64,000 nucleotides of DNA from Thermomicrobiales bacterium. Its GTDB lineage: Bacteria > Chloroflexota > Chloroflexia > Thermomicrobiales > UBA6265. This document shows, piece after piece, positions 1,222-56,812 of this stretch; within the stretch, counting starts at the first letter, position 1, and each line of letters starts with the position of its first letter. Both the position numbers and the translations under genes were made by a program. Under the pieces are notes generated by a model. It was not told where the DNA came from. It worked only from the letters and a program-made list of their open reading frames with translations, and did not search any database. The DNA is taken from NCBI GenBank assembly GCA_019637585.1, contig JAHBVL010000002.1:62001-126000 (forward strand), in the 5' to 3' direction.

Positions 1222-1249
1222 AGGCGGGAGGCGGGAGGCGGGAGGCGGA
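1222..1249. repeat. Heptamer tandem array, AGGCGGG x3 plus one variant
   Basis: Four 7-base units in register: AGGCGGG three times, then AGGCGGA. A TATACT box abuts it at 1215-1220. No inverted partner arm is visible nearby, unlike the arrays at 7433, 42608 and 56723. Confidence 0.85.
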
Positions 1250-5877: not shown

Positions 5878-5903
5878 CTGGACCAAAGCAGGCGGGCGAC
5901 GAC

Positions 5904-6152
5904 GAAACCACCGGTTGAAACCGGTGGCTAAGACGCCTTGCCCGTAGCGAGCAAATCGCTGCCTCTGTTCATCACGTCGCCCGGGATGATTCGGCTATCC
6001 TGAGCGACGGCAGATTTTGACAACGAGCGAAACCACCGGTTGAAACCGGTGGCTAAGACGCCTTGCCCGTAGCGAGCAAATCGCTGCCTGTGTTCATCAC
6101 GTCGCTTGGGATAGCTTGGCTATCCTGAGCGACGGCAGATTCTTGCAACGAG
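5904..6152. repeat. 125-bp direct duplication, each copy headed by a hairpin
   Basis: Unit 1 is 5904-6028, unit 2 is 6029-6152. Each begins with the palindrome CCACCGGTTGAAACCGGTGG (5908-5927 and 6033-6052), then GCTAAGACGCCTTGCCC, and ends with GAGCGACGGCAGATT. The two differ at only a few positions. It lies between convergent genes. With the inverted copy at 6176-6200 it makes up almost all of the 330-base gap 5878-6208. Confidence 0.9.
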
Positions 6153-6208: not shown

Positions 6209-7417
6209 TCAGAGCTTGTGCCCGAAGTCGCTGGAGAAAGTGTACTCGGTGTCGCTCCACGGCTTGTCCCAACCCGGTGATTCGAAGCGGTGAGGATCGA
6301 AGGGGGTCAGGTCGACGGGAGATTGATCGCCGGTGATCTCGGCGGCGAGACAGAGTCCGACGGCCGGGGCTTTCTTGAAACCGGCTCCACTGAATCCAGC
6401 AGCGACGTAAAGACCCTCGATCCGTGTCCGGCCGATGACCGGATGCGTGTCGGGGGTCATGTCGTACAAACCGGCGTGTCCGTGCAGATAGACACCGCGG
6501 CCCATGGCCGGAATGCGTCTGGCGATGGCGGAAAGGGCGGCAGTGGGGTAGGAGGGGTCGTTGCCGGGCGTGTAGTCGTCCGGATCGACTTCGTCGTGCT
6601 GGTCGCCCCCTCCGACGCCAACCAGACTGGTTCCCGGTCCCCAGGGACGAGTGAAAACTCCTGCTGCCGTGTCGATGAAGATGAAGTGGTCGCGAGAGAG
6701 CTCCAGCGGTCGTTGAATGATGGCGATCTGGACGCGGAGCGCGGTAATGGGCAAGTCGATGCCGAGCGGAGTGAGCTGATTCACGCACCATGGTCCGGTC
6801 GCCAGAACCACGACATCCGCCGCCATAGCGCCCTCGGCGGTTTCCAGCCCGACTACCCGACCCGATTCGACGACGAGTTTCGTGTCACCAGCCTGCTCGT
6901 GAATCTCCACACCCGAGCGCGCCGCCGCTTCCGCCATCGACCGGGTGGCCGCGATCGAATTGACATACCCGCTATCTGGCTCCCATGAAGCAAGAGGGAT
7001 GTCGTCAGTGGCCAGGAAGGGCTGCATTGCCTGCAGCCCGTCGCCGGTGACCACCTGCGAATTGATGCCGAGACGGTTCTGCATGGCCACATTGGCGCGC
7101 AGCAAATCGAGATTCCGTTCGTGTCCTGGTGAGGAATCGACGGTGACGACGACCCCCTCGGGCACAAACCCGCACTCGCCGCCGACATGGTCGGGCCAAT
7201 CGCGATAGATCGACTGTCCCAGCATGGCCAGGCGGGCTTCCGGTTCATTCGAGTAGTGCCGGCGAAGGAGCGCTCCCGTTCTACCACTCGCGCCGGCGGC
7301 GATCACCGACCGCTCGAAGAGCGCGACCGACCCCGCTTTGCGCTGCCCGAGCGCCCAAGCGGTCGACGCTCCGACAATGCCACCACCGATAACCGCGATA
7401 TCGTACGAGGCAGGCAT
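6209..7417 (-). CDS. FAD-dependent amino-acid-oxidase-family oxidoreductase (DAO/SoxB type)
   Basis: A single-chain flavoprotein of the D-amino acid oxidase/glycine oxidase/sarcosine oxidase family, oxidising an amine or imino acid. With ATG at 7417 it has 402 residues. The Rossmann FAD motif IAVIGGGIVGASTAW is at the N-terminus, the SVALFERS strand gives the ribose-binding acid, and AGASGRTGALLRRHY follows, as in the family. The C-terminus has LYVAAGFSGAGFKKAPAVG, the second FAD-contacting loop. AGGAG sits six bases before the ATG, which decides the start; the frame runs open a further 56 codons upstream. It is divergent from glcDEF. Substrate is unknown; a link to glyoxylate via glycine or sarcosine is only a guess from that neighbourhood. 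Confidence 0.85.
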   Translation of the reverse strand: MPASYDIAVIGGGIVGASTAWALGQRKAGSVALFERSVIAAGASGRTGALLRRHYSNEPEARLAMLGQSIYRDWPDHVGGECGFVPEGVVVTVDSSPGHERNLDLLRANVAMQNRLGINSQVVTGDGLQAMQPFLATDDIPLASWEPDSGYVNSIAATRSMAEAAARSGVEIHEQAGDTKLVVESGRVVGLETAEGAMAADVVVLATGPWCVNQLTPLGIDLPITALRVQIAIIQRPLELSRDHFIFIDTAAGVFTRPWGPGTSLVGVGGGDQHDEVDPDDYTPGNDPSYPTAALSAIARRIPAMGRGVYLHGHAGLYDMTPDTHPVIGRTRIEGLYVAAGFSGAGFKKAPAVGLCLAAEITGDQSPVDLTPFDPHRFESPGWDKPWSDTEYTFSSDFGHKL

Positions 7418-7432
7418 GGGGTGCTCCTGGGT

Positions 7433-7645
7433 AGAGTTCATAGTTAATAGTTCATGGTTGATAGTTGATGGTTCGAGGCGCGTTGTGCGGTGCTCTGAAA
7501 TCCGCTTGCCTGGGCGAGTGTCTGACTGCCGGATTCCAGCTTGCAATCCTCCAAGCACCCTTGGCGATGAACTATCAACCATCAACTATCAACCAAGAAC
7601 TATCAACCAAGAACTATGAACCATGCACTATGAACTATGCACCAA
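7433..7645. repeat. Inverted heptamer-array element (ATAGTTN / NAACTAT)
   Basis: The left arm (7433-7474) has six 7-base units A(G/T)(A/G)GTTN. The right arm (7569-7645) has eleven units NAAC(T/C)A(T/A), the reverse complement of the left. The 94-base spacer is unrelated GC-rich sequence. The whole sits in the divergent gap between the flavoprotein gene and glcD; 7646-7726 has no other feature apart from the glcD leader. It has no coding capacity. Confidence 0.9.
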
Positions 7646-7726
7646 CAGTTCCACCCCATTGCCCACTCTTCCCCATTCCGGCGATACTGCCGGTAACGAA
7701 CCGGCTCACCGGAAGGCCATGCCCCC

Positions 7727-9187
7727 ATGGGCGCGAATGCACTGATCGAGCAACTGCAGCGAATCCTCGGACCGGCGAACGTCGTCCATTCGGCGACCGA
7801 TCTGATGGTGTTCGAGTACGACGGTTCGGTCGACGCGGCAATCGAAACGGCGCGGCCGGTAGCGGTTGTGCTGCCCGAGACGGCTGAGCAGGTCGCGGCG
7901 ATCGTCCAGTTGGCCTCCCGGGAAGGGTTGCCGATCGTGCCGCGCGGGGCCGGTACTGGCCTGAGCGGCGGTTCGGTTGCCCAGCAGGGCGGCATCGTCA
8001 TCGCCACGACCCGGATGAACAGGATCCTGGAGGTCGACTTTGACAACCGGATCGCGCTCGTGGAACCGGGGGTGATCAATCTCGAGCTGAGCGACTATGT
8101 CGTTCCCGATGGCTACTTTTTCGCTCCCGATCCCTCCAGCCAGCGAGCCTGCACCATTGGCGGCAACATCGCCGAAAACTCGGGAGGACCTCATTGCCTC
8201 AAATATGGCGTGACGACGAACCATATTCTCGGTCTCGAAATCGTCACGCCCGACGGAAAACTCCACTGGATTGGCGGACGGGGCGAGGAATCGCTGGGAT
8301 ATGACCTGCATGGCGTGTGGGTCGGGTCGGAGGGGTTGATCGGCATCGTGACCAAAGCGATGGTCCGCCTGACGCCTTCACCCGAAACGGTTTCCGTGCA
8401 GCTGACCGATTTCATCGACGTCGATTCCGCGTCGAACGCGGTCACCGAGATCATTGCGGCCGGCATCGTTCCGGCGGCACTGGAGATGATGGACAACCTG
8501 ACCATCCAGGCTGTCGAACCAGCATTCCACGCCGGCTATCCGATGGACGCCGGCGCGGTCCTGCTCGTCGAGATCGACGGCGTCCGGGAAGATGTGGCCG
8601 ATACCGCCGAGGAAATCGCCGCGATCTGCCGTCTGGCCGGCGCGCGTAGCGTGCGGGCCGCGACCGAGAAGTCAGAGCGGGATCTGCTCTGGAAGGGGCG
8701 AAAGATGGCGATCGCGGCCATGGGTCGCCTGGCGCCGAGCTACTACCTGCACGACACTGTGGTGCCGAGAACTCGCTTGGCCAGCACCCTCGCCCAGGTG
8801 GGAGCGATTTCCAGGGATTTCGATCTGCCGATCGCCAACATGTTTCATGCCGGGGATGGCAACCTTCACCCGCTGATGCTTTTCGACCGGAAAAATCACG
8901 ATCAGGTGGAGCGGGTGCTTGGTGCCAGCAAAGAGCTGATCAAGTACTGCATCGACATTGGCGGCGCACTCACCGGCGAGCATGGGATCGGCACGGAAAA
9001 GCGGGATTACATGACGCTTGTCTATACGACCGACGATCTGGCCGCCATGGCCGGAATCAAACATGCCTTCGACCCGCAGGCGTCGTTCAATCCCGAAAAA
9101 CTCTTTCCGCGCGGCTACATGTGCGGGGAAGTCCGCGCATTGCGCAACGCGGCACTGGCCCAGAAGTACGGTATCTACCCGATGTGA
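7727..9187 (+). CDS. glcD: Glycolate oxidase subunit GlcD (FAD-linked oxidase)
   Basis: Catalytic FAD subunit of glycolate dehydrogenase, converting glycolate (possibly also D-lactate) to glyoxylate and passing electrons to GlcF. The 486 residues hold an N-terminal PCMH-type FAD-binding domain with VVLPETAEQVAAIV and PRGAGTGLSGGSV, and the family segment CTIGGNIAENSGGPHCLKYG. The C-terminal FAD-linked oxidase domain has NMFHAGDGNLHPLML and LTGEHGIGTEKR. First gene of glcDEF, coupled to glcE by a one-base TGATG overlap. Confidence 0.95.
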   Translation: MGANALIEQLQRILGPANVVHSATDLMVFEYDGSVDAAIETARPVAVVLPETAEQVAAIVQLASREGLPIVPRGAGTGLSGGSVAQQGGIVIATTRMNRILEVDFDNRIALVEPGVINLELSDYVVPDGYFFAPDPSSQRACTIGGNIAENSGGPHCLKYGVTTNHILGLEIVTPDGKLHWIGGRGEESLGYDLHGVWVGSEGLIGIVTKAMVRLTPSPETVSVQLTDFIDVDSASNAVTEIIAAGIVPAALEMMDNLTIQAVEPAFHAGYPMDAGAVLLVEIDGVREDVADTAEEIAAICRLAGARSVRAATEKSERDLLWKGRKMAIAAMGRLAPSYYLHDTVVPRTRLASTLAQVGAISRDFDLPIANMFHAGDGNLHPLMLFDRKNHDQVERVLGASKELIKYCIDIGGALTGEHGIGTEKRDYMTLVYTTDDLAAMAGIKHAFDPQASFNPEKLFPRGYMCGEVRALRNAALAQKYGIYPM

Positions 9188-41308: not shown

Positions 41309-42598
41309 ATGGTTTCCAGTCTTCAGTCCGCTCCCGCCCCAACCAGGCAGGCCGATCCGCCCGATCTCTTTCGGGTGGCCGTCGAGCAGTTCGAACTGGC
41401 TGCCGACATCCTGGGTCTGGAAGACAGCATGCGGCAGATTCTGACGCACTGCCAGCGCGAGATCACCGTGAATTTTCCGGTGGAGATGGACGACGGGTCG
41501 GTGCAGGTCTTCACCGGGCATCGAGTGCAGCACAACAACGGACCTGGACCGACCAAGGGCGGTATTCGCTATCACCAGAATGTGACCCTTTCCGAGGTCA
41601 AAGCGCTGGCGATGCTCATGACCTGGAAGTGCGCCGTCGTCGGGCTTCCATACGGGGGAGCCAAGGGTGGGGTGACGGTCAATCCGAAGATGCTCTCCCA
41701 GAACGAGCTCCAGAACTTGACGCGCCGCTACGTTTCCGATATCTCTCCCTTCATCGGTCCGAATCAGGACATTCCAGCCCCCGACATGAACACCAACGCC
41801 CAGACAATGGCCTGGATCATGGATACCTACTCCATGAATGCCGGCTATTCGGTGCCTGGCGTGGTGACTGGCAAACCCCTAACGCTCGGTGGTTCGGAAG
41901 GACGGGCGGAGGCAACTGGTTCCGGGGTCGTGTTCGCCATCGAAGAAGCGGCGCGAGCGATCGGTCTGAATCTGGAAGGCGCCACCGCTGCCGTGCAGGG
42001 ATTCGGCAATGTCGGCTCGGTGGCCGCGCTGGAGATGGCGAAACGGGGGTCGAAGGTTGTCGGCATCAGCGACTGGAAGGGCGGGGTGTACAACCCGGCC
42101 GGTCTCGACGTGGCCGCATTGAAGGAGCACACCGAGGCGACGGGTTCGGTTACGGACTTTCCGGGAACCGATGCGATTTCCAACGATGAGCTGCTGGAGC
42201 TCCCCTGCGACATTCTGATCCCGGCAGCGATTGAATGCCAGATCCACGCCGGCAATGCACCGCGCATCCAGGCCACGATCGTGGCCGAAGGAGCCAATGG
42301 GCCAACGATGCCGGAAGCGGATGAGATCCTCTTCGACCGGGGCATCCTGGTCTTGCCCGACATTTTCTGCAATGCCGGAGGCGTCACCGTTTCGTACTTC
42401 GAGTGGGTGCAGTCGCTGCAGTGGTTCCCCTGGTCGCTGGAAGAAGTCAATTCCCGGCTCCAGCAGATCATGCAGAAGTCGTTCGCCGCCATCTATGCCA
42501 CAGCAGGCGAGCATCAGATCAACATGCGGACTGCCGCGTTGGTCAAGGCGATCGACCGGGTGGCGGACTTTACGAGGTTGCGGGGGATATTTCCGTAG
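41309..42598 (+). CDS. gdhA: Glutamate dehydrogenase
   Basis: Hexameric dehydrogenase interconverting 2-oxoglutarate plus ammonia and glutamate. 429 residues, the size of the small (catabolic/thermophile-type) enzymes. Motifs: GGIRYHQNVTLSEVKALAMLMTWKCAVVGLPYGGAKGGV (containing the GLFV active-site lysine), IPAPDMNTNAQTMAWIMDTY, the Rossmann AAVQGFGNVGSVAALEM, and IVAEGANGPTMPEADEIL. GATGGAGG precedes ATG 41309. It lies 50 bases after gatB in the same direction. Cofactor preference is not clear by eye; a D in VVGISDWKGG after the glycine loop leans toward NAD. Confidence 0.96.
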   Translation: MVSSLQSAPAPTRQADPPDLFRVAVEQFELAADILGLEDSMRQILTHCQREITVNFPVEMDDGSVQVFTGHRVQHNNGPGPTKGGIRYHQNVTLSEVKALAMLMTWKCAVVGLPYGGAKGGVTVNPKMLSQNELQNLTRRYVSDISPFIGPNQDIPAPDMNTNAQTMAWIMDTYSMNAGYSVPGVVTGKPLTLGGSEGRAEATGSGVVFAIEEAARAIGLNLEGATAAVQGFGNVGSVAALEMAKRGSKVVGISDWKGGVYNPAGLDVAALKEHTEATGSVTDFPGTDAISNDELLELPCDILIPAAIECQIHAGNAPRIQATIVAEGANGPTMPEADEILFDRGILVLPDIFCNAGGVTVSYFEWVQSLQWFPWSLEEVNSRLQQIMQKSFAAIYATAGEHQINMRTAALVKAIDRVADFTRLRGIFP

Positions 42599-42607
42599 GG
42601 CGGGGGC

Positions 42608-42713
42608 GTGGTCCGGAGTCCGTAGTCCGAAGCGCGGCTGCTCCGAGGGGACGCGAATCCACATCGGGCGGGCCACAGGTGCCCGAACTACACTTTGCCG
42701 GACCCCGGACCTA
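42608..42713. repeat. Inverted heptamer-array element (GNAGTCC / GGACCNN)
   Basis: The left arm (42608-42628) has three 7-base units GTGGTCC, GGAGTCC, GTAGTCC. The right arm (42700-42713) has two units GGACCCC, GGACCTA, reverse-complementary in core. The 71-base spacer contains CCCGAACTACACTTTG at 42682-42697. It lies between convergent gdhA and the RCK gene, and the right arm overlaps the last three bases of the latter. Confidence 0.8.
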
Positions 42714-53290: not shown

Positions 53291-53313
53291 GTCACCAGAG
53301 CGATCGTTTGCTC

Positions 53314-53410
53314 GTTGCCGTCCCTTCGCCGGCATGACCCGGATCAGGTTCGGAGGGTTGGCGACATGTCTCTTTGTCGCTCTCTCAGCGCGTTCCGCAC
53401 CCCTGGCAAC
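53314..53410 (-). ncRNA. TPP riboswitch (THI element)
   Basis: Binds thiamine pyrophosphate and represses the thi operon. On the minus strand the hallmark strings are AGGGGTGC, GCTGAGA, ACCC, GAACCTGATC and ATGCCGGCGAAGGGA in the right order, closed by a P1 pair GTTGCC/GGCAAC (53410-53405 with 53319-53314). thiD begins about 70 bases downstream. The absence of a terminator suggests translational control. Confidence 0.96.
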
Positions 53411-53418
53411 CAGTTGAC

Positions 53419-56716: not shown

Positions 56717-56722
56717 AGTATA
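56717..56722 (-). promoter_or_regulatory. -10 box of tRNA-Arg
   Basis: TATACT on the minus strand, 21 bases before the tRNA-Arg 5' end and at the outer edge of the heptamer element. No TGN before it. Confidence 0.5.
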
Positions 56723-56798
56723 GCGGGCAGTGGGCAGCTGGCAGCGGGCAGCAACGTCCCGAACTACATTTGCTGCCTGCTGCCTGCTGCCTGCTGCC
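56723..56798. repeat. Inverted heptamer-array element (GNNGGCA / TGCTGCC)
   Basis: The left arm (56723-56750) has four units GCGGGCA, GTGGGCA, GCTGGCA, GCGGGCA. The right arm (56771-56798) has four exact TGCTGCC. The 20-base spacer includes CCCGAACTACATTTG. Degenerate heptamers CGCCGTC and TGCTCCC continue the right-arm register to 56812, where the TGCTATACT promoter begins. It separates divergent tRNA-Arg and tRNA-Pro. Confidence 0.9.
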
Positions 56799-56812
56799 CG
56801 CCGTCTGCTCCC

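Follow-up and report, generated by a model that had tools for sequence, protein, structure and literature searches.

The heptamer element at positions 7433 to 7645 of the window (the whole 64,000-nucleotide stretch of Thermomicrobiales DNA analyzed here) belongs to a genome-wide class of short tandem arrays whose invariant is strand polarity, not sequence. Genes that touch these arrays have shifted their silent positions in the same direction, a pattern suggestive of a strand-directed rule at the borders of genes, part of which was known before. Heptamer arrays fill the intergenic DNA of many Chloroflexota and cyanobacteria, and Rehm et al. (PMC4692102) describe the functional role of such repeats as still to be elucidated. 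The codon shift makes this descriptive repeat story testable.

An inverted heptamer array between two oxidoreductase genes

The element lies between two divergent genes, one for a DAO-type oxidoreductase and one for a GlcD-type FAD oxidase, and consists of two arms around a core:

6209..7417, minus strand: gene for a FAD-dependent oxidoreductase (DAO, PF01266), with 17 nt between its start codon and the left array
7401..7432, plus strand: outer left flank, G over C (G-C of +5 and +3 per 20 nt)
7433..7474, plus strand: left arm, six degenerate units, G-rich and C-poor on the plus strand, from reading the sequence, TRF, and shuffles
7475..7568, no strand: spacer (core), separating the arms by about 93-94 bp
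7569..7645, minus strand: right arm, 11 degenerate units, C-rich and G-poor on the plus strand
7646..7680, minus strand: outer right flank, C over G (G-C of -8 and -9 per 20 nt)
7727..9187, plus strand: gene for a GlcD-like FAD-linked oxidase (PF01565 and PF02913)

Within the outer left flank lie the start codon of the minus-strand gene and its Shine-Dalgarno region. The left-arm units read, in order, AGAGTTC, ATAGTTA, ATAGTTC, ATGGTTG, ATAGTTG, and ATGGTTC, and the right arm is built from units of the types NAACTAT, NAACCAT, NAACCAA, and GCACTAT. The initial annotation had counted six units on the left and eleven on the right, in opposite orientation and in an unbroken 7-base register, and we confirmed this count. 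The unit sequences that it gave, ATAGTTN and NAACTAT, are exact in three of the six left and five of the eleven right units, the remainder being degenerate. TRF calls the arms at 7435-7474 and 7567-7639, and period 14 outscores period 7 in the right arm. The period-7 scores of the arms, 17 and 21.5, exceed the maximum of 9.5 obtained from 2,000 shuffles of the same 310 bases. A long imperfect hairpin had also been proposed, and the predicted fold of the whole element as single-stranded DNA agrees with it (-45.6 kcal/mol, z = -5.8). The core has no significant fold of its own (7474-7566, z = +1.3), and the BLAST search of the genome found no second copy of 7475-7568. In a relative, the orthologous spacer between the same two genes measures 129 bp and carries no array.

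Other arrays in the window are as follows:

1222..1248, plus strand: unpaired array of AGGCGGG, its partner absent from the window
42607..42630, plus strand: weak third element, GTCCGGA/GTAGTCC, score 10, its right arm barely detectable
56722..56752, plus strand: left arm of a second element, AGCGGGC, between two tRNA genes, called by TRF
56771..56801, minus strand: right arm of the second element, TGCTGCC, with the TRF end extending to 56816

The layout of the element had been equated with those at 42608 and 56723; the likeness holds for 56722-56801, which converges in the same way, whereas the element at 42608 is weak. The TAG stop codon of the left gene (42598) precedes the 42607-42630 array by about 9 nt, and the genes around it (stops at 42598 and 42711) are both G-skewed at their ends. 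A REP-like dispersed palindrome, GTAGTTCGGGCACCTGTGGCCCGA (GTAG plus a hairpin), occurs in the window at 42668-42691 and 56755-56765 and is found at many other loci (e.g., L143:92-116 and L086:11186-11212), often directly on the core side of 7- or 8-mer arrays.

Polarity and placement of the arrays across the genome

The genome comprises 3.94 Mb in 33 contigs, in which BLAST with the element returned 93 matches. Arrays of 7 or 8 bp from at least six families occupy 94 of the 740 intergenic regions in the 1.26 Mb that we scanned. The first 20 stretches were picked partly at BLAST hits and the later 40 by place, and genes were called with a simple coding-potential script made for the analysis. 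Period 7 (also 14 and 21) dominates both the scan of 464 kb and the later scan of 1.26 Mb, and a second class of arrays is octameric. Twenty stretches chosen by place (400 kb) contain 16 period-7 segments, compared with zero in 400 kb of a second-order Markov null. The arrays in 94 intergenic regions and the margin over the shuffles contradict the case that the initial annotation had named as its refutation, namely, a chance microsatellite at a sole locus. Its view that period and symmetry, not sequence, define the family is borne out by a genome-wide class with many different heptamers and needs widening to periods of 7 or 8 and to a fixed direction, with the G-rich arm first.

The families include the heptamers AGTKNAT, AGTCCGN, AGTCRGC, AGCRGGC, GGSCAAA/GGGAAAT, and TAACTGG and the octamers AGGCGGAG/AGACGGCA. 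Octamer arrays of AGGCGGAG followed by AGACGGSA (L145, L097:3999-4126, L098:1134-1257, and L143:5479-5733) converge like the heptamers, and both lengths sometimes share one element. A sample of 864 kb holds 109 arrays, six of them genic and the remainder intergenic. We rejected a universal AGTNNNN frame across families because the reversed control TGANNNN is equally common in several genomes and family F breaks the frame.

Neighboring arrays of opposite skew are always convergent, G-rich and then C-rich on the plus strand (40:0), and this holds between convergent genes (10:0), divergent genes (5:0), and tandem genes (14:0 and 11:0). Over the four gene contexts, the closer gene is the one 5' of the G-rich strand for 122 arrays and the other gene for 28; between convergent genes, the ratio is 31:1. 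The distance from the gene to the 5' edge of the G-rich strand has a median of 3 nt at stop codons and 86 nt at start codons. Polarity or skew of the array type is absent from spacers that lack arrays. An excess of G and a shortage of C extend over about 40 nt of the gene-side flank of arrays, with G exceeding C at 43:3 and 43:8 loci, and the core-side flank is weakly skewed; the composition bias runs outward from the array into the gene and hardly inward into the core. A search for lag-7 periodicity in the G-rich gene-side leader found none, and we therefore rejected the idea that the leader is a decayed array.

The two arms of one element come from different families in 19 of 42 elements, which means that the invariant cannot be a perfect hairpin. 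Matching families are found in 23 of the 42, compared with 8.7 expected, and the order of families from gene to core is mostly consistent (A before B, 6:0; E1 before E2, 7:2). Partner arms are predicted to pair at -30.9 kcal/mol, compared with -21.2 kcal/mol for swapped arms (0 of 3,000 permutations). Within the commonest family, an arm's own partner gives no stronger pairing than other partners do; the pairing signal therefore stems from the matching of families, for which shared origin is another possible source. Single arms have predicted folds of -6.4 and -2.4, compared with -8.9 for control DNA, and are thus less folded. Cores are no more structured than control DNA (z of -0.68 versus -0.58), on which ground stalling at a hairpin core was rejected. 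The element in the window also lacks the features of an intrinsic terminator: its core shows no compact G+C-rich hairpin (z = +1.3), and no T run follows the arms.

Silent codon shift in adjoining genes and arrays in distant genomes

Neither the gene-edge placement nor a codon shift in the neighboring genes had been described in the initial annotation. In 43 array-ended genes, four-fold sites within the last 12 codons carry G at a frequency of 0.66, compared with 0.31 in the bodies of the same genes, and C at 0.18, compared with 0.51 (p about 1e-26 for the shift). At the same codons, NNR codons end in G at 0.83 versus 0.58, NNY codons move toward T, and leucine moves toward TTG. The other gene end shows the mirror image: in 16 genes whose start codon has an upstream array within 30 nt, the four-fold G frequency over the first ten codons is 0.13 versus 0.43. 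The shift weakens with distance from the array and was replicated at both gene ends in four other Chloroflexota genomes (f15).

Comparison of array-ended genes with their array-free orthologues in a relative shows that the protein ends are kept and the codons differ. One gene end, RAEELGHFEFHI, has 4 C in 36 nt, compared with 13 C in RAEDLGHFEFHI, its array-free orthologue in the relative. The codon difference is absent from ten control genes compared with the relative. Overwriting of gene ends by the array was rejected, since, wherever an array-ended gene has an orthologue, homology extends to its final residue or close to it and the position of the stop codon is kept. The silent sites of conserved genes independently record a directional force that is linked with the arrays and can be measured in any genome pair. 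Codon usage near gene ends can reflect neighboring DNA instead of translation.

The AGTTNAT family itself was not found in 40 relatives, and relatives carry other heptamers. A generic pattern of AGT every 7 nt was matched in 49 of 201 Chloroflexota genomes, and period 7 is dominant in every genome sampled. Arrays in Symploca cyanobacteria lie nearer the 5'-side gene at 53:13, form convergent pairs at 11:0, and sit a median of 1 nt from the stop codon. The Symploca codon shift is weaker: four-fold C near stops is 0.09, compared with 0.27 in gene bodies (p = 3e-4), and the comparison with control genes is not significant (p = 0.27). Two Symploca genomes (L064:3895-3925 and L066:5613-5648) share the same gene and stop codon, with (GAATTGG)n in one genome and (GAATTAA)n in the other; the gene is about 90% identical, and homology breaks off right after the array. 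A 1.77-Mb genome from another family (G146, genus g64) does not follow the placement and polarity rule, which is therefore not universal, and we set this genome aside as a strain comparison because it is too divergent. Its heptamer arrays, CAGTNNN and AGCTGAT, lie within larger dispersed repeats (e.g., L243 and L245).

We tentatively propose, at somewhat less than even odds, that distant bacteria share a sequence-independent, strand-directed border rule. Under such a rule, the outward strand would be G-rich and C-poor over about 40 coding nt and the spacer in any gene orientation, the arrays would be its visible peaks, and silent positions would be reshaped at both gene ends. If true, this border rule would represent either a boundary signal or a directional process, general in nature and so far undescribed.

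Known repeats and competing explanations

Part of this arrangement is familiar from the heptameric repeats GGGAATC and GGGGA(C/T)T of Xanthomonas and Nostoc. Rehm et al. 2015 (PMC4692102) report that the G-rich strand in both lies closer to the 5'-side ORF whatever the ORF orientation, that Xanthomonas has 70-75 convergent repeat pairs, and that pairs are few in Nostoc. They state that 83% of repeats retain their gene context between two Xanthomonas species, that gene order around repeats is more conserved than around control spacers, and that heptamers are over-represented among bacterial SSRs. They further describe G4 formation in vitro by GGGAATC-type repeats and propose a G-quadruplex role, leaving the function open. 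Compared with those repeats, the arrays described here share the 7-bp unit, the intergenic location, the convergent pairs, the ORF-side placement, and the overlap with stop codons. They differ in comprising at least six unrelated families plus octamers, mostly incapable of forming G4, and, unlike in Nostoc, pairs are common. Placement and convergent pairs are thus already known from Xanthomonas, and placement is already known from Nostoc (PMC4692102). As far as the open-access literature shows, the following is new: Chloroflexota carry many non-G4 families as well as octamers, the 40:0 polarity is strict and spans families, arrays keep differing offsets to stop and start codons, and adjoining genes of independent lineages show the synonymous codon shift.

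The arrays also resemble the STRR heptanucleotide repeats of heterocystous cyanobacteria, which are degenerate tandem 7-mers between genes; STRR are not known to have polarity or inverted pairing. TAACTGA repeats of Beggiatoaceae are heptamers that likewise lie between genes and favor one orientation relative to the following ORF, but they have a single unit sequence and occur nearly always in direct sets, with one inverted case, unlike the inverted pairs and many units found here (MacGregor 2015, PMC4679880). REP/BIME elements and REPINs with RAYT transposases are similar as extragenic inverted repeats that often lie at gene ends, but they are copies of one palindrome, and the element described here has no such core: a search of 7475-7568 for the GTAG and conserved palindrome of REP/BIME found no GTAGTTCGGG, and this core is unique in the genome.

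The reading that we prefer, although its probability falls short of one-half, is that the arrays are boundary DNA built by slippage and selected for strand composition, such that RNA crossing it would fold and RNA starting or ending inside it would stay open. Replication slippage with a 7- or 8-nt step would supply and homogenize the repeats, and selection would preserve the composition of the strand and not its sequence, keeping the strand that runs 5' to 3' from either flanking gene into the spacer G-rich and C-poor. Because the outward strand is G-rich from both genes, any RNA crossing the whole spacer, from either side, would carry a G-rich half followed by a C-rich half and could form a long hairpin. 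RNA that starts or ends within the spacer would hold one half, unpaired and open. The likely effect would be a bidirectional transcript boundary that separates neighboring genes. We infer that selection rather than mutation caused the polarity and the codon shift and that the benefit lies in termination, insulation, or RNA stability. The turn of silent sites to G from C as well as from A, together with the 83% conservation reported for Xanthomonas (PMC4692102), favors selection. At the window element, the array-free orthologous spacer of the relative makes the boundary dispensable, and the left arm, 17 nt from a start codon, may lie within the leader of that gene, which would be an odd site for a boundary.

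The main rival of such a transcript boundary is a strand-directed synthesis that adds repeats, which we regard as only slightly less probable; neither explains every point. Here, 3' DNA ends pointing into the spacer at gaps or breaks would be extended by an error- or slippage-prone polymerase, each end gaining G-rich repeats 5' to 3' and two facing ends yielding convergent arms, and purifying selection would merely exclude the product from essential coding and promoter DNA. Since the composition bias runs outward into the gene and hardly inward, directional synthesis would explain it more simply than a boundary does. It would also account for a polarity that disregards gene direction, a leader that is G-rich on one side (43:3 and 43:8 outside, weak inside), the abutted stops yet distant starts, the mixed-family arms and the order of families, and the Symploca gene end where (GAATTGG)n is exchanged for (GAATTAA)n and homology ends at the array. 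It fits less well with the replacement of both C and A by G at silent sites, which corresponds to no known damage spectrum, with a leader that lacks 7-nt periodicity, and with the more conserved gene order around repeats (PMC4692102), which argues against break hotspots. No dedicated enzyme was identified either: reverse transcriptase and Ku were rejected as necessary enzymes because PF00078 has no match in this genome and Ku has none in the array-rich f15 genomes. Neutral heptanucleotide microsatellites, produced by replication slippage without any directional process, would suit the dominance of period 7 in all sampled genomes, the homogenization of units, and the over-representation of heptamers among bacterial SSRs (PMC4692102). 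They predict neither the 40:0 polarity nor the gene-edge placement nor the codon shift, and this already disfavored explanation is improbable.

A bidirectional Rho-dependent terminator, in which crossing RNA would end C-rich and G-poor and load Rho, matches a rut site in composition and polarity; Rho is encoded in this genome, and a silent preference for G on the sense strand means C in antisense RNA. We nevertheless consider it very unlikely, as arrays have the same placement in Symploca, where the Rho RNA-binding domain had no match in two genomes (9.0 and 8.7 Mb; completeness not stated), and in Nostoc, as reported by Rehm 2015 (PMC4692102). The Symploca result speaks against Rho as a general cause. 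Slightly less probable still is the insertion, between genes, of a mobile element of the foldback, MITE, or REP/BIME-like kind. The REP-like GTAGTTCGGGCACCTGTGGCCCGA stands beside arrays in some cores, and Y1 transposase genes number six in this genome and are commoner in array-rich genomes (25 of 34 versus 54 of 167); reverse transcriptase genes are in similar excess in array-rich genomes, so lineage or genome size may explain both excesses. Several array-rich genomes (G074 and G105) have no Y1 match, the core of the window element is unique in the genome, and a signal of target-site duplication is absent (own 4.03 versus 4.02 for non-partners, 40 pairs). Least credible of all is a G-quadruplex element of the kind proposed for GGGAATC repeats. 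Family E and a few others are G-rich, and Rehm 2015 (PMC4692102) showed G4 formation of GGGAATC-type repeats in vitro, but four GGG runs are present in 14 of 153 arrays, and the window units AGTTNAT and ATGGTTN have no G-tracts (no GGG), leaving AGTTNAT incapable of forming G4.

A second dispersed palindrome, CCCTCACCCC-N-GGCCCCTCTCCCG-CGGGAGAGGGG, recurs in spacers (L089:5017-5053, L150:5944-5985, and L090:4500-4540), and its polarity, C-rich first, is opposite to that of the arrays. The window also contains a 38-bp palindromic tandem repeat (GCGGACACGGGGGTCCGCATCTACGGTGATTCTGAACG) in 4.5 copies at 1328-1496 and, between genes at 5899-6152, a 125-bp repeat in two tandem copies that are 93% alike. 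A TPP riboswitch on the minus strand at 53303-53414 scores above the Rfam gathering threshold.
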